Source: a virus
IMG/VR virus record: IMGVR_UViG_3300028844_005953
Span: 1 to 24,574 of that record
Strand: one strand, 5' to 3'
DNA length: 24,574 bases
The notes below the pieces were generated by a model. It ran no database searches, was not told the origin of the DNA, and saw nothing but the letters and a program-made list of their open reading frames with translations. Position numbers and translations under genes: made by a program. This document shows, in pieces, positions 6,001-21,931 of this stretch (the first letter of the stretch is position 1; each line of letters starts with the position of its first letter).

Positions 6001-6599
6001 CTTAAAATTCCACTACCATCTGTAATTTGTGCTGATGATGAAACTAAACCACTTGGTTTACCACTTAATCCACTAAATGTTATTTGAGATGAACCACTAA
6101 CAGTTCCACTTGGTAAATAATTTGTTATTGAACCACTTAAAACACCAGTTCCATCTAAAGTTCTTAATACAGAACCACTAACTAATCCACTTGGAATATT
6201 TTGTAAGTTTACATTCCAATCAGCACCACTACCACTTGCGGATATACCACTAATTCTTGTATCAAAAGAAGCAGAATCAGTATAATAAGATGCTGTAAAT
6301 GTATTTAGGTGAGATATATCAGTTGAACCACCTCCACCAGTTGAAGATATTGTGATTATATTTGAAGAAGATGCAATAGTAGTATTTGAACCACCTTTGA
6401 AAATAGGAGTACCTGTAATGTTTGAATAAGGGATATTAGTTAATCCACTACCATCACCAATAAAAGAACCACTAAAAGAACCAGATACACCACTTGCACC
6501 TGTTAAGTTAACCGAACCAGCCTCTACTTGGAAATCTCCTTGTATGACCGAGGCGGTTACTACACCTTCTATCTGTTTACTTTGAATTAATGTTGCCAT
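1..6599 (-). CDS. Giant repetitive tail fibre / cadherin-like adhesin, 3' end outside the window
   Basis: An open frame runs without a stop from ATG at 6599 to the window edge (at least 2199 codons, begins MATLIQSKQIEG). Residues 1 to about 780 are Gly/Ser-rich fibre sequence with many LPSGxxSGSxQIT phrases, tandem 14-residue units VLRTLDGTGVVSGS, and a segment DLWWKSDDGNLYIYYDGYW of the kind seen in phage fibres. From about residue 790 the protein becomes a chain of cadherin-like or Ig-like beta domains (phrases such as LDYEQ, DTESD and NVTDN), ending in 211-residue repeats anchored by ITFRDQYDNIGSG. One repeat is interrupted at about residues 1835-2147 by an alpha-helical, His/Trp-rich domain containing EHLMHTIHQYG. 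The gene follows the 6601-6966 stop by one base, so translation is probably coupled. It most likely forms a long host-recognition fibre or whisker on the virion. The family is inferred from repeat character, not a specific homologue. Confidence 0.85.
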   Translation of the reverse strand, partial: MATLIQSKQIEGVVTASVIQGDFQVEAGSVNLTGASGVSGSFSGSFIGDGSGLTNIPYSNITGTPIFKGGSNTTIASSSNIITISSTGGGGSTDISHLNTFTASYYTDSASFDTRISGISASGSGADWNVNLQNIPSGLVSGSVLRTLDGTGVLSGSITNYLPSGTVSGSSQITFSGLSGKPSGLVSSSAQITDGSGILSGSIVDQLPSGIISGSTFTSFSSSVDSRLDTLENATDNTGSDTQSLSISGDQLTISDGNTVTIPTGSGTVPAGTISGSAQITSFGFTSGSHTDIPSGTISSSAQVISSLPSGVISGSSQLPSGTISGSTQITDGSGIFSGSLVAGTNVTINQDGDNFIISSSASGGGSVPAGTISGSAQITAFGFTSGSHTDIPSGTVSGSSQLTSSYDSRYLQTSTYTTDSASFDTRISNIGDHANISHLNAFTQSAGVRLDSIESFTSSIDTTIKTKLNTEDVLSGSIESLLPSGVISGSTQITDGSNIVSGSVLRTLDGTGVVSGSVLRTLDSTGVFSGSLVAGSNITINQVGDNFEISSSASGGSASVTVSDSAPGSPSQGDLWWKSDDGNLYIYYDGYWVISTDITTGLPTGVVSGSAQITSVITDTYISASAASSGFGSGGSSDFTTLTNVPSGLVSGSTQITDGSNIVSGSVLRTLDGTGVVSGSVLRTLDGTGVVSGSVLRTLDGTGVVSGSVLRTLDGTNVFSGSFIGQGGTTITSGSGNVIISSSASGDVTFNGNRIISQDKLPAFFTSSFNPGTSGSVQDFLNAVFYPNSEPSITTGNQTISEYSASSAQIVQLVATDPEGQSLTFGTASSYTDDLVRVSSGGIMTLNALAESSSFNTDSVSGGHGHLVKVTATDTFNSTVEKDIYIIVTPNEAPKFRETSVSGNIITSVTSNLNESSANDTLVKRVFFTDTESDTITITTSSIDNNHFDVTVYGTYLDIRQNTGSLDYEQQTTYNFSITASDEHFENGQDSDSRTFLPITVNVTDNLVPVVNSQVVGSINENSSNGTSVGSISATDSEGDGISFVTFDLHKLLLDGSAVSSGSYGGTSQLTDPHENPFQMDSSGNVTRKTGVLLNSDLINSYQYRVQVRDNYNATISSASVATINVVDDTPATLTDNFSNLFIKESELSGTTIKTTNYGSTAADFNSNQGGSFSSSNSQISINGSGTLSLGFNISGSITQSGETIDSTITFTNTFGTTTNQNISVSVIENHFPSASFTNQTSNFNSNLATTNTNMVLVSITDTEGDTPYSASLSGTDAGKLNINYTNSNSSSLYIRANENLSAGTITYNLKVTDSYSKSSDYTGRTFTIAAADTGTLGGDTTSYIIESSESGSTIRDASGFGSGNASQLSVSYSPSYGSPVVQSYTSSNAAIAVDNSGNLTLGVNISGSVTQSGEIISSTITFRDQYDNIGSGTVNVNVFANHFPSASFTQNTSIYNENQMVSGSLVESFTITDTESDVPYSISLSGTDASKIDIVPQNSNTSSVQLKTKQDLAGGSYTYTVDVSDSYSKTSQYDRTVTIASADTGSITTNGTFYIIESALNGDFIFTNSNGRTGTQGDLGVSYSPNYGSQVVQSFTSSNALIDIDSNGNLSAGGNISGSGNTDGDTITSTITYRDQYDNIGSGSITVNIAENFAPTVSSTSTSNLNTNQATGSEQILNLLLSDTESDAIPNGGLSFSGFNSTYFTPSIATPNMRLLVNNTSVPAGTYAYTASIQDTHGFSTTTVSNTFTVAQASTGSLGGDTAIYIIESAESGSVFRDQTGFNQGNAAQLSVSYSPNYGSQVVQSYTSSRQGISVDSSGNLTAGYDFSGSVTSTDYTSTALVSDSTNSTLYGKSLHVNGIKVVQGAATGSQSAVPDAFTEKVAQTIKLMVTSSGADINDTDQANMIGILKGETGTWHSGYPTAQRILRGAGSDYSPNPLIDSNYSSYPGLQNFQDSHATDDMIWYLNSSATSGSGDDDIVEVIEHLMHTIHQYGVRGAVSGSYNALSWDPDTDSDWNTRELYLAIKEAVDDSVFDISDYGDASYNTASTFKLIAKEYLYLLNFNMWEYSSLWDGGSLSPEWNDNSRTPSGIQTNNPLGYALYNKYIKPVLTKPSKTVLQNIFQDGDVGDPTVAGSSGYTPEVGTGLISKITFRDQYDNIGSGSVTATIFGNSSPVASFTQTSGYESDNATSGSDAGA
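160..1097 (-). other. Inserted His-rich domain (about 308 aa) splitting one fibre repeat
   Basis: In the other repeats the phrase SGSVT is followed within about 15 residues by ITFRDQYDN. Here SGSVT (about 1098-1112) and ITFRDQYDN (about 121-146) are separated by about 310 residues. The anchor spacing is 1557 bp instead of 633 bp, an excess of 924 bp or 308 codons. The insert has GETGTWHSGYPTAQRIL, then EVIEHLMHTIHQYG (E1986, H1987, H1990, H1993), then a helix- and aromatic-rich part. The spaced histidines suggest a metal site, but the order EHxxHxxH is not the classical HExxH. An enzymatic or metal-stabilised receptor-binding role is inference only. Confidence 0.7.
1098..2965 (-). repeat. 633-bp (211-aa) tandem domain repeats in the fibre
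   Basis: Equivalent positions ending a beta-strand (FRDQYDN, YRDQYDN and the degenerate FTNTFGT) start at 1678, 2311 and 2944, exactly 633 bp apart. A fourth anchor at 121 belongs to the unit split by the insertion. Each unit carries, in order, ENxFPSASF or a variant, a DTESD-type acidic turn, a YTxxVxDSYSK-type strand, YIIES, SVSYSPxYGS and SGNLxxGxxISGS. The DNA around the anchors (about 20 bases from 2311 and from 121) is nearly or fully identical, which indicates recent duplication or gene conversion. Confidence 0.8.
4431..4598 (-). repeat. Four tandem 42-bp units in the fibre gene
   Basis: Four consecutive in-frame 42-bp units each encode a close variant of VLRTLDGTGVVSGS; the last reads VLRTLDGTNVFSGS. 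The units differ mainly by synonymous changes, so the peptide is better conserved than the DNA. Related copies lie at 5004-5087 and 6129-6170. Confidence 0.9.
5004..5087 (-). repeat. Two tandem 42-bp units in the fibre gene
   Basis: Two in-frame copies of the VLRTLDGTGVVSGS unit, the second with DST in place of DGT and ending VFSGS. Both clusters end in VFSGS and are flanked on the other side by GSNIVSGS, so larger blocks appear to have been copied. Confidence 0.88.
6129..6170 (-). repeat. Single 42-bp unit in the fibre gene
   Basis: One copy of the 14-residue unit (VLRTLDGTGVLSGS) near the protein N-terminus, related to the tandem clusters at 4431-4598 and 5004-5087. Confidence 0.8.
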
Positions 6600-10310: not shown

Positions 10311-11930
10311 TTATACTAAGTTTAAGTCTTTAACATAGATTTTACCATAGAATTCTGGTCTTACCATTTTCTTAGCATATCTAGTCATTACACCTCTACG
10401 AGGAGTAAAGTTAGTTGGGTCATATACAAGAGGTGTCATGATTAATGGTACATACGGTGCATAAACAGCTCCAGTTTCAAGGAAATTACTTCCTTTAAAT
10501 CCTAACAAGATTTCGTTTGAAGTCATGTAAGGGTTTTTGTAAACTGTATATCTGTTTGCAATTGAACCAACAGTAGATACACCAGCTGCGAAAGATGAAG
10601 CATCTTTATCAGCAGAAACTGTAAATCCTGGGATTGATTCTAAAATTGTACATACATCAGGAGAAGCAACAATAAAGTTAGCTCCACCTCTTAAAGTTAA
10701 TTGGTGAATCTTGTTCGAAACTTTGTTAAGTTTAGCACCTAAAGTTTGGAACCAAGAGTTCTTAGTATAAGCAGCAGAGTTAGAACCTGCAACCCACGAT
10801 GAACCATTGTACTCTTCACCTAAAGTTACTGACCAGTACTCAGTTGTTAAAGCGTTAGCTTTTAACATATCTAAGATTTCTAAGTCAATCTCTAATGAGA
10901 TGTACTCAGATAACATAGAAGTTAATTCAGCTTCTGCATCAATTGAGTGGTAAGCGTTAAGGTCTTGAGCAAGTTCAGGTGTCCATACAGCCTTTAATTT
11001 TCTTGTCTTAGCAACAATTGCTTCAGACTTCAATTCAAGGTCAACTTCAGGAATACCTAAATCATCACCTACATTAGAAACACCACCAGCGTTTCCATCT
11101 TCAAAGTCACCTCTGTTTTCAGCGACTGGTTGTTGTGCATACTTAACAGTTAAATCATCAGCTTTTACAGCACCTGCTCCACAGTTCGCGAAGAATGTGA
11201 ATGCACCAGCTGCAGTTGCAGATGAGTGTGCTGGGTAAAATGCATCAGCACTTGAGAAATCAGATGAAGAAATGTAGAAACTTCTTACACCATCAATATC
11301 AGGTCTTGTTAAGTCATTTGTTGAACCATTGTCAAAAGTAATTTTTTGAATCGCACCTGCAGCTATTGAAGCTGAAAGTGATGAATCGAATCCTACTTCT
11401 GCCCATGATGCAGTTGCGAATGTTAAATCTGCAACAGCAACATCATCAGATACATCATTAATTGAGTATCCAAATCTACCTTCACCGTATAAACCATTTT
11501 CAGCAACATTAGTTGAACCTAAGTCCGAACCATCACCACCGAATAAAGATTTTCCAGAGAATCCAGGATTACCTGGTTGAGCCGTACCATACTTAAAGTC
11601 TAAATAGAATATAAGACCTGATGGTAAGTTCATTGGTTGTACACTAACGAATTCTTTCGATGCGATTTCACCGAAGATACGTCTTACTAATGGAAGGGCT
11701 ACCCCACTCCATTCTTCACTACCAGCTGATGTACCAGTCTGTGTAGCTTCATCAAGCAATTGTTTTGCTTGGTTTTCTAACAATACAGAAATCTGTGATT
11801 GTTCTCTTTCTCCTAAACCTTCAAGAAGTCCAGTTTGTTCCCATTTTCCTTTCAGTTCTCTTGTCTCTGCAAGCATTACTGATTGTGGGTTCTTTCCTTC
11901 CATAAGTTTAGATAAATCAAAATTTGCCAT
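10311..11930 (-). CDS. 23: Major capsid protein (gp23-like), 539 aa
   Basis: T4-type HK97-fold capsid protein, close to the T4 gp23 length of 521. Recognisable family segments are the N-terminal MLAETRELKGKWEQTGLLEG (about 19-38), PLVRRIFGEIASKEFVSVQP (about 80-99), SGLIFYLDFKYG, then TRKLKAVWTPELAQDLNAYH, AEAELTSMLSEYISLEIDLE, the P-domain-like NRYTVYKNPYMTSNEILLGF and YAPYVPLIMTPL, and a C-terminal RRGVMTRYAKKMVRPEF. T4 gp23 loses its N-terminus to the prohead protease at an (I/L)-x-E site; LAE (20-22) and LLE (50-52) are candidates here. A strong AAGGAG lies 8 bases before ATG. It follows the scaffold gene by 25 bases and ends at a strong terminator. No separate vertex protein (gp24) is present in the window. 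Confidence 0.97.
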   Translation of the reverse strand: MANFDLSKLMEGKNPQSVMLAETRELKGKWEQTGLLEGLGEREQSQISVLLENQAKQLLDEATQTGTSAGSEEWSGVALPLVRRIFGEIASKEFVSVQPMNLPSGLIFYLDFKYGTAQPGNPGFSGKSLFGGDGSDLGSTNVAENGLYGEGRFGYSINDVSDDVAVADLTFATASWAEVGFDSSLSASIAAGAIQKITFDNGSTNDLTRPDIDGVRSFYISSSDFSSADAFYPAHSSATAAGAFTFFANCGAGAVKADDLTVKYAQQPVAENRGDFEDGNAGGVSNVGDDLGIPEVDLELKSEAIVAKTRKLKAVWTPELAQDLNAYHSIDAEAELTSMLSEYISLEIDLEILDMLKANALTTEYWSVTLGEEYNGSSWVAGSNSAAYTKNSWFQTLGAKLNKVSNKIHQLTLRGGANFIVASPDVCTILESIPGFTVSADKDASSFAAGVSTVGSIANRYTVYKNPYMTSNEILLGFKGSNFLETGAVYAPYVPLIMTPLVYDPTNFTPRRGVMTRYAKKMVRPEFYGKIYVKDLNLV

Positions 11931-11955: not shown

Positions 11956-13194
11956 TTAGTTAATGTTAGCAAGTTTTTTGAATCTATCAGCCATCGTATT
12001 AGTTGATTCAGCAATTACTTCCTTTTTAGGAGCAGTTGATGCAACTGGTTTAGATGCGAATGATTCGTTTATTTTCTTACTAGCTTTTTGTTTTTTTGCA
12101 GTTCCATTAAATTTGAAACTCTCAGCCAAAGTTGAGAATACTAATTTAACTTCTCTTACATTACCTGTTCTGTCTAATGTTTCAACAACTTTATGTTTTT
12201 GTTCGTTGTTTAAATCATAAGCTCTGAACAATTTGTTCGTATAAAGAAGTTTTGCATTCAATAAGTTAACCTCATTGATAGTTTTCTTCAATTCTTTGAT
12301 AGTACTAATCGCTTCGTTTAACTCAGCTTTAGTTTCTTCCAATGCATTGTTTTCTTCAACTTCTTCTTTTTCTTCTTCAGAATCTTCACCTTCAGATACC
12401 TCATCAGAACCATATCCCATTTCTCTTAGGATTTCTTCTAAATCGATTTCATCATCTAAATCTTCTTCTTCAGAATCTTCTTCTTCAGAATAAGTTTCTT
12501 CAACTTCTTCTTCGTGTTTCTCATCTTCATGAGAATCAACAGCGTCATCAGCGATATCTCCAACTTCTTCTTTTTCCTCACTATCAAGTTCTTCTTCGTG
12601 GTCTGCACCTTCTTCTTCAGAAAGTTCAGCCTCTAGTTCTTTGATAATTGATTCTAAATCAAGTTCGTCATCTACTGAATCTTCTTCTTCGTGAGAATCT
12701 TCTTCGTAGTTTTCTTCTACTGAATCTTCTTCTTCTTCTGATTCTTCGTTTTCACTAATTTCAGCAGCTTTCTCAGAATTTTCATCCTCAGAACCTACTT
12801 CACTAGACTCAACATCCGTATCAGGATTTCCTTGAGCTACATCTGATGATGAGTTAGCATCATCTGCTGGTTGCTTATTGTCTCCATCACCGATATCAGA
12901 AGCACCTGCATCAGGAGCATCATCTTTATCGTACTCTTCATTAACTTCCTCTTCGTCCTTATCTTCACCTTCAGCAGTAATTTCTTCCTCACCGTCAGCG
13001 TTGTAAGTTCCCTCTTCTACTTCTTCTTTATCTTCATCTTCTCCTTCAATTTCTTGCTGAAGTTTTTGAGATAAGATAGACTGTAGTCTAGGAGTGAAAG
13101 CCTCTTCAAGAGCGATTTTGGCATTAGCAATTGCAGTTTCTCTAACAGCTTTTGCATCAGCGATAGCCTCTTTTAACAAATTTGAATTTGCCAT
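11956..13194 (-). CDS. 22: Prohead core scaffolding protein (gp22-like), 412 aa
   Basis: Internal scaffold that would shape the prohead and then be degraded by the gp21 protease. After a basic N-terminal helix (about 1-55) the protein is extraordinarily Glu/Asp/Ser-rich (about 50-285), with two copies of a DDExDLExIxxE phrase in the acidic tract. A coiled coil and conserved core follow: ELNEAISTIKELKKTINEVN, LNAKLLYTNKLF (312-323), then GNVREVKLVFSTLAES. The C-terminus has KINE (374-377) and VIAE (to 396) before the tail MADRFKKLANIN; both fit gp21 cleavage sites and this tail type is common in T4-like core proteins. T4 gp22 is about 269 residues, so the acidic tract is expanded. It is preceded by a 147-base leader with a hairpin and by AAAGG 8 bases before ATG. 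Confidence 0.88.
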   Translation of the reverse strand: MANSNLLKEAIADAKAVRETAIANAKIALEEAFTPRLQSILSQKLQQEIEGEDEDKEEVEEGTYNADGEEEITAEGEDKDEEEVNEEYDKDDAPDAGASDIGDGDNKQPADDANSSSDVAQGNPDTDVESSEVGSEDENSEKAAEISENEESEEEEDSVEENYEEDSHEEEDSVDDELDLESIIKELEAELSEEEGADHEEELDSEEKEEVGDIADDAVDSHEDEKHEEEVEETYSEEEDSEEEDLDDEIDLEEILREMGYGSDEVSEGEDSEEEKEEVEENNALEETKAELNEAISTIKELKKTINEVNLLNAKLLYTNKLFRAYDLNNEQKHKVVETLDRTGNVREVKLVFSTLAESFKFNGTAKKQKASKKINESFASKPVASTAPKKEVIAESTNTMADRFKKLANIN

Positions 13195-13368: not shown

Positions 13369-13674
13369 TTATTTTTGAGTAGATTTATTTTTATTTTGTG
13401 GTTTATTTGATTTTTTTCTTTTCTTTTTTCTTAAAAGTAATGAGGCTTTTGGGTCTCCGTTTTCTATTTTTTCTAATATAGTTAACTTCTGTTGTTCTCT
13501 GATTGCCTGTTGTTTTGCTTTTCTACGAACTGTTTTGGGTTTAATGTAGTATTTTCTTTCTCTCAGTTCTAGTAGGTGTTCAGATTCCATAACACCTCTT
13601 TTGAATTTTTTTAATGCTCTGTTAATATCTCCTTTGATAACTTTAACAGAAACTAATTTTTTCTTTTTACTCAT
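13369..13674 (-). CDS. rpsU: Phage-encoded ribosomal protein bS21, 101 aa
   Basis: Residues about 7-62 match the small-subunit protein bS21: LVSVKVIKGDINRALKKFKR, then LLELRERKYYIKPKTVRRKA, corresponding to the family features VxVxxxExxxxALrrFKR and LxExRrRxxYxKPxxxRkrkk. The remaining 40 residues are a Lys/Arg-rich extension, longer than a typical bacterial bS21 (about 60-70 aa). bS21 sits by the anti-Shine-Dalgarno end of 16S rRNA on the 30S platform and influences initiation. Phages of aquatic bacteria are known to carry this gene. Here it sits inside the head operon between internal-head genes and the scaffold, with its own TATATTTATA element 23 bases upstream, so it is probably expressed late. 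The ribosome site AGGAG is only about one base from ATG, unusually tight. Confidence 0.85.
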   Translation of the reverse strand: MSKKKKLVSVKVIKGDINRALKKFKRGVMESEHLLELRERKYYIKPKTVRRKAKQQAIREQQKLTILEKIENGDPKASLLLRKKKRKKSNKPQNKNKSTQK

Positions 13675-13720: not shown

Positions 13721-14065
13721 TTAAGAACCCTTACCAGTTCCACTTTTTTTACCACCTGTATGAGTAGAAACATTGATAGGTTTTTTACCTTGCCCTCTTG
13801 ATTGAGAACCACCTCTATTTGCTTTGTTTTGTGCTGCTCTTTTTCTACGAGTTGCAGATTCTTTTTCTTTTTTACTCATGGATGCGGCTTTCTTGGCAGG
13901 AACACATTTAGCATATCCTTTTTTCTTACCACTTGTACCACATGGTGGGTGTTTACCACTCTTATCTTTTTTACCAATGTTTACCCACTTTGATTTGAAC
14001 CAGTTTTTCAAATCTTCATTTGTAGTTTCTTCAAATATCTCGTCTATGATATCTTGGAGTTTCAT
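13721..14065 (-). CDS. Small basic Cys-containing head-region protein, 114 aa
   Basis: Function not established. A short acidic N-terminus (MKLQDIIDEIFEETTNEDLK) is followed by a domain with WFKSKWVNIGKKDKSGKHPP, C42, GTSGKKKGYAKC (C54), then KKEKESATRRKRAAQNKANR and a Gly/Lys/Ser-rich tail. This W-V-x-I-G ... CG ... GYxxCxP ... K pattern recurs as a small basic module in aquatic T4-like phages (I recall DUF5872-type annotations, unverified). The high Lys/Arg content suggests nucleic-acid binding or packaging inside the head. The start overlaps the upstream stop (TAATG at 14065), so it is translationally coupled to the 363-aa gene. Confidence 0.8.
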   Translation of the reverse strand: MKLQDIIDEIFEETTNEDLKNWFKSKWVNIGKKDKSGKHPPCGTSGKKKGYAKCVPAKKAASMSKKEKESATRRKRAAQNKANRGGSQSRGQGKKPINVSTHTGGKKSGTGKGS

Positions 14066-15156
14066 TATTTACCTAGTTGGAATAATTTTTCTTCTGCAGC
14101 TGCATTAGTTCTGTAATCGTAGTGTTTTGGATTTAGTCCAAAATCTCTTAGGGATTTTTCTAACCAAATTCTATACTTTCTTTTACCATACTTTTTTTCC
14201 ATGGTATCAAGTACATCGTAAAATAGTTTTTCGTGTTTAACTTTTTTTACTAAATCTTTGATTTGTTTTTTATCTTCGTTTGTATAATATAAATGTCTAT
14301 ACTTTGATGATTCTTTTACTGATTCACCGAATCCATAAACATATCCACCTTTGTGTAAACTGTTAACGAACTTTGCTAAATCTTTTTTGTTTCTGAAAAT
14401 TTGGATATCAAAGAAATCACTACCATCTTTGTGTTTCTTTTTACCATCGTGGTAAGAGATTGTATATTTTGATTTACCAATACCATCTTTTTGGTAGTAT
14501 CTTTTTTTACCTTCGTTTACTGATTCTTTTACAGGTACACCATCTTTGGTTATTCTATAATCAACCCACCCATCTTGTTTTGCTAATGATTTGGCATCTT
14601 TAGAAATAGCCTTTATCATCATTTTATCTATATTAGGATTGTGTGTTGTTTTTGTTAAAGATGCTTTTTTGAATTTTCTATCTTTTTTAGATGATTTATA
14701 TTCAATACCATAAGTTATTGCTGCTTCGTTTACTGATTCATAAATTGGTTTACCTGTTTTTTTATCTATTCTTTTTGGTTTATACAATTCCCAATCAGAT
14801 GTTTTGGCATTCCATATAAGAGCACTGCCATCGGACATTATTACAAATTCTTTACCTTTGATTTTTTTCTCAACACCTTTGCCCATCTTCATATACCAAT
14901 TTAATTTTTTATATAAATTAGTATCATTTACATATTTTTCTGCCCAATTACTACCCTTACCAACTTCGTTTATTGCGTATTTGGCTTCTTTAGAATCCCA
15001 ATCTCTTTTAGACATTGAACCAACTGATTCAATACCGCTCTTTGATAAAATTTTATCGGTATTTTTCTTTAAGAACATATCTACTGCTCTTTTAGACTTA
15101 AATACTTTAAGTAATTTTTTACCTTTTCTTGTTTCTATATAAGATACGAATTCCAT
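14065..15156 (-). CDS. Multi-module basic protein with ESVNE linkers, 363 aa (possible internal head polyprotein)
   Basis: No single known family covers this protein. It reads as five short modules separated by near-identical linkers: AINE (61-64), ESVNE (140-144), ESVNE (211-215) and ESVKE (278-282). The modules are 64-81 residues each, nearly all strongly basic and mutually unlike in sequence; for example module 2 has KEFVIMSDGSALIWNAKTSD and module 4 has GIGKSKYTISYHDGKKKHKD. The linkers fit the I/L/V-x-E| preference of T4-type prohead protease, whose gene is 2.6 kb upstream in the same cluster. I infer a precursor for several small internal head proteins. The alternative is an uncleaved fusion protein with flexible linkers. 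A strong TTAAGGAG precedes the ATG; the gene overlaps the 114-aa gene by one base. Confidence 0.85.
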   Translation of the reverse strand: MEFVSYIETRKGKKLLKVFKSKRAVDMFLKKNTDKILSKSGIESVGSMSKRDWDSKEAKYAINEVGKGSNWAEKYVNDTNLYKKLNWYMKMGKGVEKKIKGKEFVIMSDGSALIWNAKTSDWELYKPKRIDKKTGKPIYESVNEAAITYGIEYKSSKKDRKFKKASLTKTTHNPNIDKMMIKAISKDAKSLAKQDGWVDYRITKDGVPVKESVNEGKKRYYQKDGIGKSKYTISYHDGKKKHKDGSDFFDIQIFRNKKDLAKFVNSLHKGGYVYGFGESVKESSKYRHLYYTNEDKKQIKDLVKKVKHEKLFYDVLDTMEKKYGKRKYRIWLEKSLRDFGLNPKHYDYRTNAAAEEKLFQLGK

Positions 15157-15165
15157 TGTTACTCC

Positions 15166-16140
15166 TTAACACTTTTTCCAACCACCACCAGCTGCTTTGT
15201 ATTTTTTTGCTGCCCAACCATTTGCGTATGCAGATGGGTAAACATCAAACTTTTGTTTAGCTTGTGATTTGTAAGATGACCACTTAGAGGGGTTTGTTGG
15301 ACAATTTTTTTCCATTAAACGAGATACTTTTTTACCAAACTCATAAAGTTTAGTTTCTTCTTCGTTTAAATCCGATTCTCTTAATACTGTAACTATGTTT
15401 CCATTAGAAGTTCTGTTGTGAACTGTAACGGGTTGTTCGTTTAGAGATTCCATAAATACAGTTCTACCATATCCATCTTCAATAGAAATCGAATTTCTTC
15501 TTCCATGCTTTTTATTTAATTTGTGATACATCTTAATCGCATCTTCAACTTTTTCATAAGATTTTGGGGAGTTAGCAACTATCCTATTTCCATTTCTAGC
15601 TATAATAGTATATGGTCCACCTCTTTCTTTTTTCTTTATAATTTTTTTGATTTCTGAATCAGAAACTTCATTTACTGATTCGTTACATCCACCCTCTGTT
15701 GTTCCTTTACATCCACAACCACAATCTTCTTTAGATTCGTTGATACCTAATCTGTTTTTCATTTCATCTTCAGTAATCTCACCGAACTTATAGTATCTTG
15801 AAAGGATGTGTCCCATATCTTCATACAACCCTGCCATTCTTTGGTCAAGGTTTCTAGCTTCTACTGCAACTTTATCGAATTGTTTACCCAACTTATCTAA
15901 TTCACTCATGTTTCTCTTTACAGTATGTTTATCGAACCAATCACCAGCTTCTTTGATTGCAAGTGTTCTAGCAGCTTCAGTAATACCACCAAGGGTTTCT
16001 GCCACTTGAGTAATATCAGATTTTCTATCCATTGATTCTTGATACTTGTTGTAAGTTGAAACAATTTCAAGAAAATGTCTTTTAACCTCATTAGATAGAG
16101 GTCTTTCTTCGTTTTCTTTTAATAGTTGGGTTAGTTTCAT
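15166..16140 (-). CDS. Multi-module head-region protein with Cys cluster and ESVNE/ESLNE linkers, 324 aa
   Basis: Module 1 (1-135) is helical and looks like a conserved family in aquatic T4-like phages (segments HFLEIVSTYNKYQE, AGDWFDKHTVKRNM, RMAGLYEDMGHILSRYY). It ends at INE (133-135). A Cys cluster follows (C140, C142, C144, C152) and then ESVNE (154-158). Module 2 (about 159-235) is a small basic alpha/beta domain (YTIIARNGNRIVANSPKSYE) ending ESLNE (231-235). A short piece ends SDLNE (256-260). Module 3 (261-324) has CPTNPSKWSSYKSQAKQKFD and PSAYANGWAAKKYKAAGGGW, a basic domain I know from many aquatic phage proteins. Probable head-internal role, possibly processed by gp21; the function of each module is unknown. 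AAGGAG lies 7 bases before ATG. Confidence 0.85.
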   Translation of the reverse strand: MKLTQLLKENEERPLSNEVKRHFLEIVSTYNKYQESMDRKSDITQVAETLGGITEAARTLAIKEAGDWFDKHTVKRNMSELDKLGKQFDKVAVEARNLDQRMAGLYEDMGHILSRYYKFGEITEDEMKNRLGINESKEDCGCGCKGTTEGGCNESVNEVSDSEIKKIIKKKERGGPYTIIARNGNRIVANSPKSYEKVEDAIKMYHKLNKKHGRRNSISIEDGYGRTVFMESLNEQPVTVHNRTSNGNIVTVLRESDLNEEETKLYEFGKKVSRLMEKNCPTNPSKWSSYKSQAKQKFDVYPSAYANGWAAKKYKAAGGGWKKC

Positions 16141-16150
16141 TGTTCTCTCC

Positions 16151-17578
16151 TTAAAATAATTTTTTTAATTTTTTATCACCATATACATCAGCGAAATACC
16201 ATTTCTTATCTTTCATATTGTATAAATATACATATTCTGCTCCACCACTTCTATCTGCAGTATCTACATATCCTCCAAAATCTTTTAAATTACCTTTAGT
16301 TGGTTTTCCACTTTTGTAGTATTCAATATCTTTATCATTATAGATTCCTCTTGCACCACCTTTTTTAATAAGTTGAAGAACATCTTTTTCATTCTTCATA
16401 TGTTTTTTAAGACCTGGTTTCATATTTGATGGATAACCATCGTAGTGAACATATGCTGATGCAATCTTACCACTTCTATCAATGATACCAACTTGTGAAC
16501 GAGTTCCTTCGTTGATTATATTTTCTTTAACAAGATTTGAAATAGAAATTCTACCTTCTTTTTTCATGTATTCTTTCTTATCAAAGATAGATTCGATTTT
16601 ATCAGCAAACTCACTCATACCATTAGCTCTTAGTTGTTTGGTTAAAGTTCCTACTGATTTAATACCATCCCATTCAGCTGCATCTGAAGTTTCTCTTCCT
16701 AATGCCGATGAATAATCATCTCTCTCAGTATATGTAGAAGCATATTTTTGTCTGATTACATCCATTTTCTCCTGATAATCATCATCGTCTATTGAAGGGT
16801 AATCTGGTCTTTTTGAAAGTTCTGGTTTATCTTCTAATACTGCAATTAACTCTCTTGCTTCACTATGGAAGTTAGAGTTTTGTAATGCCGAATAAACAGC
16901 TCTACCCATTGCAACTTTAAAATCTTCTTCACCCATTTTTTCAGGAGTAATACCATATTTTTTAGAAATCTCAGCAGCAACTTTTTCAGCTTGAGGGTCT
17001 GATTCTAATTTTGGTTTAGATGGTTCTGATTTAGGTTCATCTTTAGAATCACTAGATTTACTAATAGCTTGTTTTATAAGTCCTTTTAAATCATCTACTT
17101 CAGCATCGATTATATCTTGTTGCATTCCCCACTCTTCATTATCCTCATCCCTATCAATATCTTCTAAATCTATTTGTAGGTTTGCCAAACCTTCTAAATT
17201 ATCTTTTATTTCTTGATAATCCTCATCGGATATCTTACCTTCGAGGTCATCAACTGTATCTTGGAAATCATCTGCAGCATATAAAGAATTAAATTCCTTT
17301 TCTTCTCTATCTTTTTTCATTTTCTTTAGGCGTTCCTTTGAATCTCTATCACTATCTCTTTTGAAGATGTTTACTTTAGGTTTATCTTCTCCACCAGGAA
17401 CATCAACTGCGGTATCTTTATCTGATTTTCTTTTTTCATGAGTACCTGCTTTTACAGCAGCATCTCTAGCTGCTTTTGTTTTAAATACAGAAACATTACC
17501 AGTTTCTTTACTTGTAGCAGTAAAAGCCTTTTCTTCTTGTAAAGGTTTTAAATCGATAAGTCCACCCAATTTAATCAT
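16151..17578 (-). CDS. Multi-module head-region protein, 475 aa
   Basis: Function unknown. The N-terminal module has LKPLQEEKAFTATSKETGN and SVFKTKAARDAAVKAGTHEK (about 10-50), a short domain seen in other aquatic phage proteins. A very acidic helical middle (about 95-180) follows, then a helical domain (about 195-335) with KYGITPEKMGEEDFKVAMGR. After IINE (354-357) comes a 118-residue C-terminal domain with TRSQVGIIDRSGKIASAYVH and YDGYPSNMKPGLKKHMKNEK. The INE boundary falls exactly where this domain begins, as in the neighbouring proteins, and could be a prohead protease cut. The start overlaps the 61-aa gene by four bases (ATGA); AAGGAG is 11 bases upstream. It ends 10 bases before the next gene. 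Confidence 0.85.
   Translation of the reverse strand: MIKLGGLIDLKPLQEEKAFTATSKETGNVSVFKTKAARDAAVKAGTHEKRKSDKDTAVDVPGGEDKPKVNIFKRDSDRDSKERLKKMKKDREEKEFNSLYAADDFQDTVDDLEGKISDEDYQEIKDNLEGLANLQIDLEDIDRDEDNEEWGMQQDIIDAEVDDLKGLIKQAISKSSDSKDEPKSEPSKPKLESDPQAEKVAAEISKKYGITPEKMGEEDFKVAMGRAVYSALQNSNFHSEARELIAVLEDKPELSKRPDYPSIDDDDYQEKMDVIRQKYASTYTERDDYSSALGRETSDAAEWDGIKSVGTLTKQLRANGMSEFADKIESIFDKKEYMKKEGRISISNLVKENIINEGTRSQVGIIDRSGKIASAYVHYDGYPSNMKPGLKKHMKNEKDVLQLIKKGGARGIYNDKDIEYYKSGKPTKGNLKDFGGYVDTADRSGGAEYVYLYNMKDKKWYFADVYGDKKLKKLF
16221..16230 (-). promoter_or_regulatory. TATATTTATA inside the 3' end of the 475-aa gene
   Basis: Exact copy of the intergenic promoter-like 10-mer, 81 bases before the start of the 324-aa gene. 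It lies in coding sequence (Val-Tyr-Leu-Tyr region), so it may be chance, or an internal promoter. Confidence 0.25.
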
Positions 17579-17764: not shown

Positions 17765-18358
17765 TTAATTTAATTCTGTTATAATTTCTCTCATCATATC
17801 TTGTGCCTTACACCATTCATTACAAACTGCTGTTTGTGATTGAAGTTGTTTGTTCACAGATTCGTTCATAGGAACCATAAATGCTCCATGAGTAGATGGG
17901 TTAGAAACAAAATCCCAACCAATCAATTCAAAATCTTCACCTACTTGAACTTTACCACCTGATAAAGGTTCTACTGAACCCATACCTCTTGATGATATAC
18001 CTAATAGAATACCTGCTTGTAGAAGTTCTTTTAAGATGTTACCACTTGGAGTTGGTAAAATCTCAACTGTTCCTACTAAATCATCACCATCCCAATGAAT
18101 TTCTCTTACATTGTGAGATACATTCTTTAAGTTGATTACAGAAGAATCAGGATGGTCTAATTCACCTAATGCTCTTCTTTCTTTAATAAGTGTTTCGTAT
18201 TTCTTTGCCTCTCTCATAAGGATAGGTTTAGGATATATTCTACCATTCTGATTTTCTGCACCAGCTCTTTGTAGAATACCCTTAACGATAGTTCTTCCAC
18301 TATCATCTTCGTTTACCCTTCCTTCGAATAATCTTGTTTCTATTAATAAATTGTTCAT
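17765..18358 (-). CDS. 21: Prohead core protein protease (gp21-like), 197 aa
   Basis: Serine protease that would mature the prohead by cutting scaffold, capsid and internal proteins. Family features are a start near LFEGRVNEDDSGR, NQNGRIYPKPIL, the His motif LGELDHPDSS (H69), VGTVEILPTPSG, the Ser motif GISSRGMGSV (S122/S123), and WDFVSNPSTHGAF. The His/Ser pair matches the T4 gp21 catalytic residues by motif. I start at ATG 18358 (MNNLLIETRL) rather than an upstream TTG at 18370, because GGGGAG lies four bases before this ATG and the upstream gene ends in TAATG there. T4 gp21 is about 212 residues. Its probable substrates are encoded around it and carry I/L/V-x-E sites. Confidence 0.95.
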   Translation of the reverse strand: MNNLLIETRLFEGRVNEDDSGRTIVKGILQRAGAENQNGRIYPKPILMREAKKYETLIKERRALGELDHPDSSVINLKNVSHNVREIHWDGDDLVGTVEILPTPSGNILKELLQAGILLGISSRGMGSVEPLSGGKVQVGEDFELIGWDFVSNPSTHGAFMVPMNESVNKQLQSQTAVCNEWCKAQDMMREIITELN

Positions 18359-18534
18359 TATGCTCCCCAAGTTTTTCTTTTCTTAAACAAATCAAAAAAG
18401 ATTGCAGATACCTCTTGTCTGATGATTTTTCTTATTAAATCTTTATCAGATTCGGTGAGTTCTTCGTTAATTGTTCCTTTTTTAACATTAACGATTTCCT
18501 CATTGATGATATCATACAACTCTCTCTTAGTCAT
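18358..18534 (-). CDS. Small head-region protein, 58 aa
   Basis: A short gene encoding MTKRELYDIINEEIVN, then TINEELTESDKDLIRKIIRQ, then VSAIFFDLFKKRKTWGA. The C-terminal part (DLIRKIIRQEVSAIFFDLF) is like small proteins encoded beside gp21 in other aquatic T4-like phages, from memory. It fills the only space between the 109-aa gene (four bases upstream) and the protease (TAATG overlap), with no frame break, so it is real in all likelihood. It has two INE triplets. The role is unknown; a core or protease partner is possible. Confidence 0.75.
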   Translation of the reverse strand: MTKRELYDIINEEIVNVKKGTINEELTESDKDLIRKIIRQEVSAIFFDLFKKRKTWGA

Positions 18535-18538
18535 TTTT

Positions 18539-18868
18539 TTACTTTACATTAGATGAATCAGAAGCATCTTTAGATGGTTTCTTATTATCACCTTTACCAA
18601 TTTCAGATGATTTAGGATTTACTTCATCAAGTTCTTGTGAACCAAAAGTAGGTCCTTGTGCTCCTCTTCCAAATCTTTCATTTTTACTTCCTCTACCTTT
18701 CCAAGTTTTTTCAATCTTGTTAAAGAATGATTTCTTTTCTTCATCAGACATAGAAGGAATAGATTTACCAGCTTTTTCTAATGCTTTTTTAAAAAACTTT
18801 TGGTATTCAGATTCTTCTAATAAAGTTTCTCTGACTATATTTTTAAGTTGTTCTCTTGTTATTTTCAT
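18539..18868 (-). CDS. Small head-region protein, 109 aa
   Basis: The N-terminus MKITREQLKNIVRETLLEE is helical. It is followed by a compact domain YQKFFKKALEKAGKSIPSMS then DEEKKSFFNKIEKTWKGRGS, a short helical module I recall from other aquatic T4-like phage core proteins (unverified). The last 45 residues are Gly/Ser/Lys-rich and probably disordered. The start overlaps the 158-aa gene by four bases (ATGA). The function is not known. A minor prohead core component is the best inference from the position between portal and protease, where T4 has the small core genes 67 and 68. Confidence 0.75.
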   Translation of the reverse strand: MKITREQLKNIVRETLLEESEYQKFFKKALEKAGKSIPSMSDEEKKSFFNKIEKTWKGRGSKNERFGRGAQGPTFGSQELDEVNPKSSEIGKGDNKKPSKDASDSSNVK

Positions 18869-19341
18869 TTTTCAATCTCCTGTATTGTTTTAGCGATTTT
18901 GATTAGTTTCTCTTTTATACTATAAATATGTCTATTTGTTCTTTTCCAATATTTATCAGAATCCAACTCATTAATCGTTTTTATTTTATTATACCAATTG
19001 AAAAACTTCTCAACTTCTCTTAATTGATACTTTAATTCTTTTAGACCCATTGCCATCTTCTTATGAGGATGCATTGATTCATCGTTTTTTAATTCTAACC
19101 AACGATTTACTGGTCTTTTTACTTTAGCTTCGTTGATATTATCAATATCACCACCCACAACTGAATAACCAAGTTGTGTTGCTATTTTCTTTTTTCTTTT
19201 TTTGTGTTTGTTTCCTTTGGAGAATGCGTAAGGAGTTTGATAACCATCTACATTACCTGTTGTAGTGGCTTCATCTAATTCTTTTTGAACTTCATCAAGA
19301 ATTTCATCTAAGATTTCTTTAAGATTTTTTTCCATTGACAT
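18865..19341 (-). CDS. Modular head-region protein, 158 aa
   Basis: An acidic helical N-terminus (MSMEKNLKEILDEILDEVQK, to LDE at 22-24) is followed by ATTTGNVDGYQTPYAFSKGN and a Lys-rich run. Then INE (69-71) leads into a basic helical C-terminal module (WLELKNDESMHPHKKMAMGL and following). The TTTGxxxGYxTPYAF phrase is familiar from T4-like phage head-region proteins. Both LDE and INE fall at module borders and fit gp21 cleavage sites. I use ATG 19341, since AAGGAG lies 8 bases upstream; it overlaps the previous gene by 23 bases. The function is unknown; probably a prohead core or internal protein. Confidence 0.8.
   Translation of the reverse strand: MSMEKNLKEILDEILDEVQKELDEATTTGNVDGYQTPYAFSKGNKHKKRKKKIATQLGYSVVGGDIDNINEAKVKRPVNRWLELKNDESMHPHKKMAMGLKELKYQLREVEKFFNWYNKIKTINELDSDKYWKRTNRHIYSIKEKLIKIAKTIQEIEK
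18921..18930 (-). promoter_or_regulatory. CATATTTATA inside the 158-aa gene
   Basis: A nine-of-ten match to the intergenic promoter-like element, 53 bases before the start of the 109-aa gene but within coding sequence. It could be chance. Confidence 0.2.
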
Positions 19342-20191
19342 TTTTTATCTCCTTAATCAACTCATAAGACATCATCAAAGCTGAAACTTGCTCATCAGTA
19401 ATCTTTTTACCAACCTTTTGCTTCTTTAAAACATTTATAGTTTCTTTCAACTTGATTTTTGTAATCTTATCTTTCATTCCTTTATACATTGTATGTAATT
19501 CAGTAATGGTTTTGATTAATTCTGATTCAAAATACTCGTTGAACTTTGAAGTGTTATTAACATTATTAATATATTCTCTTAATAAACCTTTTTGTGATTC
19601 ATCTAAAGATGTATATTTTTTGTTAAAAGTTTCAACAAGAATTTTATATGTCAACAATCTGAGGTCTTTCTCTTGTTTTCTGTATTCTTCTACTAACTTA
19701 TCTTCTTTCGCTTTCAATGTAGTTTGGGAATTTGATGAGATATGCTCTACAAGAGTTAGTTTTGAATCGAATACATCTTTAATATCAAGGACATCATTCT
19801 TTTTACCTTCAAACAATTTATGTATTGAAGCTAAAATTTTATAGTTTGTTACAGGGGAAGATAAGAAATTGTTAATTTCGAAGTTCTCCTTGATAGATTT
19901 TACAAGATTATATTTTTCTCGTTGAAGTGATTTATAATCTATTTTTGTATGTGCTTCTAACACAACATCAATAAACTTTTCAGCTTTTGATTCTGTATTA
20001 TATTTTTCGTTAATTAAAAGGTTAAATAGTCTTAATTCTTTAGACATTTCAGTACCTTTACCATAGAATTCCTTAATTATTCCTTTTGCTTTTTCTTCAC
20101 TACCATTGATAATTTCAAGGGTAACTTGTCTTGTTAAAAGCTCAAAAAGAAAACCAGTATTCTTAAATTTTGAATGTTTTATTTTTCTCAT
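19319..20191 (-). CDS. Conserved T4-like head-region protein, 290 aa
   Basis: A helical soluble protein beginning MRKIKHSKFKNTGFLFELLT. The phrase KFKNTGxLFELLTRQVT is one I recall at the N-terminus of a conserved protein next to the portal gene in aquatic T4-like phages; its role is not established. The rest is mainly Lys/Glu-rich helix, including a likely coiled coil around KEDKLVEEYRKQEKDLRLLT. It is the first gene after the portal, 74 bases away, with a TATATTTATA element 40 bases upstream of the ATG, and so probably starts a transcript for the core genes. An AGGA lies about 11 bases before the start. A portal or core assembly factor is possible by position only. Confidence 0.8.
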   Translation of the reverse strand: MRKIKHSKFKNTGFLFELLTRQVTLEIINGSEEKAKGIIKEFYGKGTEMSKELRLFNLLINEKYNTESKAEKFIDVVLEAHTKIDYKSLQREKYNLVKSIKENFEINNFLSSPVTNYKILASIHKLFEGKKNDVLDIKDVFDSKLTLVEHISSNSQTTLKAKEDKLVEEYRKQEKDLRLLTYKILVETFNKKYTSLDESQKGLLREYINNVNNTSKFNEYFESELIKTITELHTMYKGMKDKITKIKLKETINVLKKQKVGKKITDEQVSALMMSYELIKEIKNVNGKKS

Positions 20192-20265: not shown

Positions 20266-21931
20266 TTACTCGTCAAGTATGTTATCTTCATCTAACATAC
20301 CTTTAATTTCATGTAAATACTTTCGTTTTGATGCGATACCTGAAATCATTTTTATAGCCTTCTCTTCAGAAGTTCTATTTCTTTCTTTTGTTCTTTCTTT
20401 ATCACCAAGTGGGTCTCTACCAAGTGGGTGTTTATCTTTTCCATAAGTTCCACCTTCTCTCGGTCTACCACCTTTATCTTTAATTTCTTGTTTCAAAGCT
20501 TCCAATGATTCTTCAATATCATCTGGCTCTTCATCTTCCAATGCAGGGTCGTTACCTTCATCTTCAATCATTCTGTATCTATATCTATCTTTGATATCAT
20601 CAATAATTTTAATTTTTTGATGGTCTTGTTCATTATCAGAAACTTTAAATATATTTTCATATACCCATTCTTTAGATAACATATTTAAACTTTGAATATC
20701 TTGAGCCAATCTAATTTTCTCACTCCACAAGTTTACTTTTTCTTGTTCGTAAATTGTAGATGGATTTACTAATCCTAATTCAAAGTTTGTCATTTCTGAA
20801 TCAGTAACACCTTGTGCATATAAATGAACGATTGCAATTTTTGTTAATTCTGAAACTACTGTTCTTTGTATTCTTTCAATTGTTCTTGCAAATCTAACAT
20901 CTTCAGCAGCAAGTGTTGCTTTACCATTGATGTTTTCTTCATATCCTAAATAAGCTTTTGGAATTTTTAGTGCTGCAAACAATTTGTTTTTTAAGTAATC
21001 AATATCTTCGATAGTTGCGTATTCTAAACCTGCAAGGTTTTCAATGTTTGTACCACTATCACCACCTCTAACTGGTAAGTAGAAATCTTCAGTTAGGTTT
21101 TGCATATTGTACTTTAAGTTGTAATCACCAGTATTTCTATCAACGAAAGGAACTTTCTTCATTTTATTGATGATTCTCTGCATATAGTTATCAACCTCTG
21201 TTGGAGGGATATTTCCTATGTCCACTTTGAATACTCTTTTTTCTGGTGCTCTCATGATTCTGTGAATCAACATAGCATCTTCCATTAGAGATAATTGTTT
21301 CCACAATCTTCTTCCATTCTCAATCATAGATTTACCATACGGCAACCAGTTTGTGTCTGCTAATAATCTAAAGTGAGCGATTTCAAAGTTTTCATATTCT
21401 TCTTTACCATTCGGGTCCTCAGTAATTTTAAACTTTACTGAGTTTGGATTCGATGGGTCTGTTCTTTCTAATCTTTCTGTGTTGTAAACTGAATGAGGTG
21501 TAACATTTACGATACCTTTACCTTCAGCGATTTCTAAACCTAAGAAGAAATCTCCATACTTACACATATTTCTTACCCATGGCCATAAGTTGAATTCAAC
21601 ATTAAGAACATCGTAAAATAAGTTTGTAAGTAAATCTTGTACTTTTTGATTATCAGAATGAACTAAAAGTGTATCACCAAATTCATTCTTTAATGTTGAT
21701 TCATCTGCGTATATATCTAATGCTGATGCTAATATTGGGTCGTTATCCATTGCATCATAATCTCTGAATACCTCTCTACGAACTTGTTGGTATGCCATTG
21801 ATTGTGCACCACCTGCTTGTTCGAAGAAAGATTTCTGAATCTTAGTGTATCTATCTCTTAGAGATGATAGATTCGTTTGTTGTCTTTCATCGGTATCAAC
21901 AACTCTTCTTTTACCATGAAGTATCTGCCAT
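20266..21931 (-). CDS. 20: Portal vertex protein (gp20-like), N-terminus apparently frameshifted
   Basis: The frame from 21798 gives 510 residues with portal features: MAYQQVRREVFRDYDAMDND, ALDIYADEST, LWPWVRNMCKYGDFFLGLEI, YGKSMIENGRRLWKQL, AMLIHRIMRAPEKRVF and LFAALKIPKAYLGYEE. The portal forms the 12-subunit DNA gate. In that frame, 38 further codons upstream read as good protein (KRRVVDTDERQQTNLSSLRD, then SFFEQAGGAQS) but offer no ATG, GTG or TTG start. A start with a good ribosome site (AGGA, five bases before ATG 21931) gives only MADTSW then TAA at 21913-21911. A +1 shift at TGG-TAA joins the two, predicting about 554 residues (T4 gp20 has 524). This may be an assembly indel, a real frameshift or a programmed one. 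A start at 21798 would lose a well-formed N-terminus. Confidence 0.9.

Follow-up and report, generated by a model that had tools for sequence, protein, structure and literature searches.

Shuffled protein modules joined at predicted prohead-protease sites in the head operon of an uncultured T4-type phage

The closest described systems are the internal head proteins IPI, IPII and IPIII (with Alt) of phage T4 and the prohead protease gp21, which, according to PMC9026906, cleaves after L/I-x-E. The T4 internal proteins have short N-terminal leaders ending in a site (MKTYQEFIAE|A) and small, highly variable bodies with little in common but the leader (PMC3012670, PMC12373910). Mature IPI has 76 residues. 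Here we analyse IMG/VR virus record IMGVR_UViG_3300028844_005953 (24,574 bases, the whole of which we call the window), where two adjoining genes, h363 and h324, encode chains of modules joined by a short linker, GAATCAGTAAACGAA (ESVNE). The locus resembles T4 in its head programme, its S77 protease, its leaders, a module size close to that of mature IPI and cutting after φ-x-E (φ, hydrophobic residue), which is predicted here. It differs in layout. In T4 one gene specifies one protein, with the site behind the leader, whereas here a frame can hold up to seven sites, one for every border between modules. The genes belong to the head operon proper, and modules pass from one carrier gene to another.

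Three further systems share some of these features. In the sections of PMC5694885 and PMC10052503 available to us, proteases of gp21 ancestry in phiKZ and SPN3US cut head proteins at several x-x-E sites; there, however, the multiple cuts break up long propeptides, and those sections describe no chain of unrelated, exchanged modules. The polyvalent proteins of phages and conjugative elements are multidomain, are thought to be delivered to the host and are likened to polyproteins by their authors (PMC5512222), but they contain large enzymatic domains and embedded peptidases, and the available part of that paper describes no gp21-site linkers. At the T-even ip locus, as set out in PMC12373910, diverse anti-restriction genes stand behind a common leader in a variable locus; whole genes are exchanged there, not in-frame modules at a repeated cutting-site linker. 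A search of the open-licence PMC literature, which left subscription journals and preprints outside, found no description of shuffled prohead-protease polyproteins.

In the family of aquatic, T4-like phages to which the window belongs, modules are shuffled, their borders fall at the site, the linker is conserved as DNA, and the site motif is purged from module interiors. We read h363, h324 and their neighbours as tandem polyproteins that carry internal-head cargo, which gp21 would cut and recombination would reshuffle at the DNA of the cutting site, and we give this reading a probability of roughly 0.8.

Linker sites and modules in the window

The five sites reported by the initial annotation are all present, on the minus strand like every gene described here. 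Two are exact copies of the linker and predicted gp21 sites, at 14512-14526 (ending module C) and 14725-14739 (ending module B). One-mismatch variants lie at 14311-14325 (ESVKE, ending module D) and 15667-15681 (ESVNE), and a two-mismatch variant at 15436-15450 (ESLNE, ending module F). Three of the five are in h363 and two in h324. At up to three mismatches the 15-mer had 14 matches in the window, whereas 100 dinucleotide shuffles averaged 1.62 matches and never exceeded 4. Further φ-N-E sites, overlooked in the initial annotation, also lie at module ends: INE at 14965, DLNE at 15361-15369 and IINE near 16508.

The open reading frame (ORF) of h363 (14065-15156, stop included; 363 aa) and its homologues with varied modules define a polyprotein of five modules. 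Module A (MEFVSYIETRKG..., ending in INE; 14965-15156) is the N-terminal module common to four related loci (L004, L042, L041 and L072). Module B with its linker ESVNE (VGKGSNW...; 14725-14964) is 96% identical in nucleotides in L034, where it has other neighbours. Module C with its linker ESVNE (AAITYG...; 14512-14724) is 98% identical in L087 and is also found in the L004 homologue of a different gene, h158. Module D with its linker ESVKE (GKKRYYQ...; 14311-14511) is the most widespread, and module E (14068-14310) is, by comparison with homologues, the near-constant C-terminal module. The second modular protein, h324 (15166-16140; 324 aa), holds the ESVNE, ESLNE and DLNE sites; its module F with ESLNE (VSDSEIKK...; 15436-15666) recurs in the L018 homologue of h363. 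The flanking modules are indeed unrelated, as had been claimed: among eight window segments, blastp-short gave no off-diagonal match at E ≤ 1.

An AlphaFold2 model of module D is a small beta-beta-beta-alpha unit (predicted local distance difference test, pLDDT, 79) with a C-terminal linker tail predicted to be disordered (pLDDT < 50). The model of whole h363 was poor (pLDDT 51) and was used for no inference. Foldseek found no match to the module D fold at E ≤ 0.001 in PDB or BFVD; PH-like and ribosomal matches had E only near 0.1-0.4 and were not used. A bacterial origin of module D was rejected, with one weak relative in 84,980 genomes. In tblastn searches against phages, the h363, L087 and L041 polyproteins had no match; the L148 polyprotein had a single N-terminal one, in Microcystis phage Mel-JY01.

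Module shuffling and linker DNA in related phages

A search with gp21 yielded 479 IMG/VR relatives, of which 80 loci were kept; the ORF set does not include the overlapping loci L001-L003, L084 and L088-L090. Loci retrieved with the exact 15-mer as query (L093-L210) were excluded from the codon tests and the counts of polyprotein architectures and included in the module clustering, neighbour, both-orders, module-pair and purging counts.

The initial annotation had proposed comparing module order among related phages. That order proved not to be fixed: two or more strict linkers were present in 42 of the gp21-anchored polyproteins, these had 41 distinct architectures, and the same modules occurred in relatives in differing order, number and carrier genes. 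A search with h363 matched 10 loci blockwise (residues 1-283, 62-147, 140-216, 276-363, 209-363 and others), with block ends near linker residues 140-144, 211-215 and 278-282. Complete proteins of the h363 family ranged from 293 to 680 aa and had two to seven sites. Clustering grouped 837 segments into 219 clusters, some of them over-merged, cluster 0 most; cluster 0 is not taken as evidence and may inflate some of the neighbour and order counts that follow. Module D (median 67 aa, isoelectric point, pI, 9.6) had 72 copies on 49 contigs, with 24 types of left and 24 types of right neighbour. Ten module clusters were represented in both the gp20-gp21 and the gp21-gp22 interval, and 49 of 668 module-cluster pairs were found in both orders.

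The same conclusion holds for DNA. Among 141 module pairs at least 95% identical in nucleotides, both neighbours were alike in 50, one differed in 69 and both differed in 22, so that at least one neighbour differed in 91/141. Module C of the window and that of L087 are 98.1% identical; the gp21 genes of the two are 77.6% identical. Module DNA up to 99% identical was joined to unrelated neighbours, and base-by-base alignments showed identity across module and linker and near-random matching past the linker. The junction DNA is thus kept while the cargo differs, as the initial annotation had stated. Internal starts of similarity (≥70% identity) fell in the ES[VILM]NE zone in 232/442 cases (0.525, against 0.071 for random positions), and internal ends in 92/237 (0.388); with any [VILMF][NDKSTR]E counted as a border, 349/442 starts lay at one (random 0.259). 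Of the earlier suggestion that short shared linkers let modules be exchanged by recombination, the shuffling stands; that the linker itself supplies the homology is suggested by the position of the breakpoints.

Linker codons proved more conserved than neighbouring codons, the other comparison that had been proposed. In gp21-anchored loci (84 ORFs, 48 loci) we collected 155 linkers in 142 distinct contexts. The exact 15-mer made up 93 of the 113 ESVNE contexts, against 5.2% predicted from codon usage, and 69/86 when counted per junction type. The conserved block consists of the 15 bases and the following G (118/141), and conservation drops immediately outside it. At identical residues, codon identity in the bin below 50% amino-acid identity was 0.941 for linkers versus 0.612 for modules; the corresponding values in the higher identity bins were 0.930/0.713, 0.890/0.762 and 0.877/0.820. 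A bias to the codon AAC was found at h363 sites (76/83 vs 0.40 elsewhere), at h158 sites (89/130 vs 0.27) and at the single gp21 site (45/52 vs 0.45), and was lacking at gp22 sites (43/66 vs 0.59). Minor linker variants clustered per locus: of 130 pairs in which a minor variant took part, 19 were identical against 4.4 expected, a value reached in 0/5000 permutations (213 linkers, 79 loci). One locus, L235, has four copies of GAATCCGTAAATGAA, with TCC in 4/4 linkers though it makes up 4.2% of that locus's Ser codons. Kinship among contigs makes formal p-values optimistic; the effects are large.

A scan for the exact 15-mer found it in at least 120 stretches. Among the matches listed there were 173 occurrences in 119 loci, 163 of them in the ESVNE phase of an open frame no shorter than 80 codons; 106 lay in ORFs that contain at least two linkers. 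In one 276-kb record (L067), two linker clusters lie about 120 kb apart, at 110-115 kb and 230-235 kb; the record has two modular loci, or else two related phages were joined in its assembly.

The linker peptide and the prohead protease

A reason for the peptide itself, which the initial annotation had overlooked, is suggested by its sequence. ESVNE agrees with the T4 gp21 rule, L/I-x-E, and would be a site for the prohead protease of gp21 type, whose gene lies 3 kb from it (17765-18370; Peptidase_S77, PF03420, 92.5 bits at a cutoff of 27). [ILV]NE was far above its shuffled expectation (observed/expected) in the families of h363 (83/6.3), h324 (60/6.3), h158 (130/19.1), h58 (89/5.5), h475 (44/8.3), gp22 (66/18.7) and h126 (62/5.3). 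It was below expectation in terminase (1/14.5) and portal gp20 (11/38.4), and stood at 9/6.3 in gp23 and 1/2.3 in h61.

The contexts of single modules point the same way. Module D (GKKRY) had E directly in front in 44/51 rows, 14 of them ESVNE, and 43 of these 44 had V, I, L, M or F at P3. At least two of the remaining seven rows are stand-alone genes in which Met takes precisely the first position of the module, and other stand-alone module genes likewise begin with Met at the module-start residue. φ-x-E stood directly before the module seed in 126/170 contexts, and most of the 38 classed as 'other' were off by one or a few residues. P1' was A or G in 92/142 linker contexts. Module interiors are purged of the motif. 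Across the segments bounded by strict linkers, 153 in number and 103 after redundancy removal (8,330 aa in these 103), φ-x-E with x other than N was seen 29 times in the reduced set against 93.4 expected (ratio 0.31, z -7.6). Control motifs were not depleted there (E-x-φ 1.22, φ-x-D 1.29, φ-x-K 1.21), and the φ-x-E ratio was 1.07-1.65 in eight control families (terminase, portal, gp23, three neck/tail proteins, a 2199-aa ORF and h290). In the major capsid protein gp23 of the window (10311-11930), the predicted cut LLDE|ATQTG (E61|A62) aligns with FLTE|AEIGG, where T4 gp23 is cut. Enrichment, the constraint on P3 and P1, purging and the gp23 column make up the pattern that would be expected of cut proteins whose released parts must survive.

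Double sites, φ-x-E-S-φ-N-E, occurred in 88/142 linker contexts of gp21-anchored loci (background for φ two before E, 0.43). If both halves were cut, a four-residue SVNE peptide would be freed.

Many core genes open with a short leader that has the motif at its end (MKLTQLLKE, MISMKKLLNE, MKLxDILNE). The leader of h324, MKLTQLLKE (16114-16140), is like a capsid-targeting sequence and may be compared with MKTYQEFIAEA of T4 IPII and IPIII and MKTFKEFTS...ITEA of IPI. In the gp20-gp21 interval, 108/113 entries had [φ][φ]xE in the first 20 aa; among controls the counts were 0/18 for terminase, 1/10 for portal, 0/9 for gp23, 0/16 for the ribosomal protein S21 homologue and 0/28 for h61. Median pI was 9.7 for h363, 9.4-9.6 for h158, h109 and h126, 10.3 for h114, 6.2 for h475 and 6.9 for h324.

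Several observations weigh against the reading of these genes as gp21-cut cargo polyproteins. About half of the internal starts of high-scoring segment pairs, and 61% of their ends, lie outside the strict ES[VILM]NE zone, partly because other φ-x-E borders exist. Related contigs are non-independent samples. The [φ][φ]xE leader is weaker in the gp21-gp22 interval (77/135 entries), and no leader could be recognised in the h363 protein of the window (3/19 in its family have one); its near-constant C-terminal module, the most constant part of h363, perhaps serves for head loading. In gp23, a gp21 substrate in T4, φ-x-E is not depleted (1.37), so folding must shield the sites there. No module had a functional match in Pfam, PHROGs, PADLOC or PDB sequences or, for module D, by fold. 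When ten polyproteins were compared with Pfam (E ≤ 0.01), no curated cutoff was exceeded and no enzymatic or anti-restriction domain was recognised. In tblastn searches against phages, the h363, L087 and L041 polyproteins had no match; the L148 polyprotein had a single N-terminal one, in Microcystis phage Mel-JY01.

Other explanations account for part of the pattern. If the linkers were flexible spacers in ordinary structural proteins of several domains, and these remained intact in the virion, modules could be shuffled without any cutting. The disorder predicted at the linker end of module D suits this idea as it would suit any linker. A spacer, however, has no need of φ at P3 and E at P1, would not purge φ-x-E within modules and would not reappear in the scaffold, the leaders and the capsid cut column; we consider it improbable. 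Alternatively, the linker DNA might be kept by the need for the peptide and by codon bias alone, with modules moved by illegitimate recombination and the frame selected. The peptide motif is clearly under selection, and T4 recombination has been reported at 2-10 bp of homology (PMC9391042), so 15 bp would not be needed. Yet exact copies far exceed the codon-usage prediction, the codon bias is strong at h363 sites and absent at gp22 sites, and minor variants cluster per locus, as with TCC in L235; on this balance we judge the explanation unlikely.

A constant, sharp-edged 15-bp block between variable modules is superficially like a cassette junction, and the linker could be the core site at which a dedicated site-specific recombinase exchanges cassettes. 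We regard this as very improbable, since conservation ends exactly at the ESVNE codon borders except for the following G, variable positions are mostly synonymous or conservative, and φ-x-E junctions other than ESVNE also act as borders; a column-by-column profile showed no flanking inverted arms, and recombinase genes were not systematically searched for. Nearly all relatives are metagenomic contigs, which raises the question of whether the mosaics are assembly chimeras. The same architectures are found in contigs from different data sets (L027/L030, L034/L043, L068/L069), reading frames are intact across every junction shown, and assembly k-mers are usually longer than 15-bp repeats; chimerism is hardly credible as the source.

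The head operon and its predicted cargo

The minus-strand order of the operon is large terminase (Terminase_6N), h126, portal (Portal_T4), h290, h158, h109, h58 and the prohead protease, followed by h61, h475, h324, h363, h114, a ribosomal protein S21 homologue, the gp22-like gene, gp23 and a neck protein. In T4 the order is 20-67-68-21-22-23. The T4-type order portal, protease, scaffold, major capsid protein is thus present, the scaffold being placed by position and acidity alone, and by this order the modular genes take the place that genes for prohead core proteins have in the T4 head operon. Window gp21 is 28% identical to T4 gp21 (E 6e-23); its closest isolates are Mel-JY01 (62%) and Flavobacterium phage immuto (53%). 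For gp23 the identities are 59% to Mel-JY01, 55% to immuto and 31% to T4.

Portal gp20 (20266-21798) was assigned by its Portal_T4 match. The acidic gp22-like scaffold (11956-13194), without a Pfam or PHROG match, was assigned by position and composition and has conserved INE sites in relatives. The carrier genes of the gp20-gp21 interval are h109 (18539-18868), with leader MKITREQLKNIVRE, and h158 (18865-19341), which receives inserted modules in relatives. On the other side of the protease lie the core-interval gene h475 (16151-17578), which holds the IINE site, and the basic protein h114 (13721-14065), with leader MKLQDIIDE and a weak DUF5872 match. Opposite parts of DUF5872 (PF19197) are weakly matched, below cutoff, by the C-terminal part of h324 (15169-15360) and by h114; for this reason DUF5872 may represent two exchangeable phage modules fused into one family.

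The S21 homologue (13369-13674; PF01165, 43.7 bits, cutoff 27) lies within the head operon, immediately ahead of the gene for the scaffold, and at roughly the same place in most loci reaching that far, Mel-JY01 included. An Alt-like ADP-ribosyltransferase suspected in Mel-JY01 between S21 and gp22 had no Pfam match and is not claimed. In h290 (19319-20191), φ-x-E is enriched 1.7-fold (147 vs 86), the opposite of the modules, which might fit a core protein shredded like T4 gp67 and gp68. At the window end, a 2199-aa open ORF (1-6599) contains a tandem array of 42/84-bp units at 4431-4625. The whole window has 170 repeated exact 15-mers.

From these sequences we propose the following route. The tandem polyproteins encoded by h363, h324 and neighbouring genes, whose modules are small (about 50-110 aa) and for the most part basic, would be loaded into the T4-type prohead through N-terminal leaders resembling the T4 capsid-targeting sequence or, in leaderless h363, perhaps through the C-terminal module. 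There gp21 would cut after φ-x-E, typically at ESVNE|A or ESVNE|G, and each module would be released as a separate internal head protein alongside the DNA. Because the same 15 bp stand at every border, recombination in the linker would swap, insert or delete entire modules in frame and leave the cutting site functional, and such exchange would produce the differing combinations in related phages; given the 2-10 bp at which T4 recombines, 15 bp would be ample. By analogy with T4 IPI-III, the modules would probably be delivered by injection and take effect early in infection, with host defences as a possible target. T4 Ip1-Ip3 are described in PMC12373910 as injected proteins that inhibit different type IV restriction enzymes and have only the leader in common, which makes an arms-race role for the modules a reasonable suggestion.

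A broader idea, offered tentatively and with chances that we put a little short of even, is that these phages draw on a common pool of small effectors, injected and kept as in-frame cassettes, in which one 15-bp sequence would be both protease site and recombination junction, made uniform per genome through repeated exchange. This would be a one-step combinatorial reassortment of capsid cargo resembling exon shuffling, with host defences as the probable driver.

If the reading of these genes as gp21-cut, reshuffled cargo polyproteins is true, many small proteins would be packed via one or two genes and reshuffled without damage to frame or processing, which would explain the quick turnover of internal-protein repertoires. 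With the linker as a simple search handle, many uncharacterised cargo modules of uncultured phages come within reach, and new anti-defence proteins are likely to be among them. A general question becomes testable as well: can a signal for protein processing serve at the same time as a junction for recombination?

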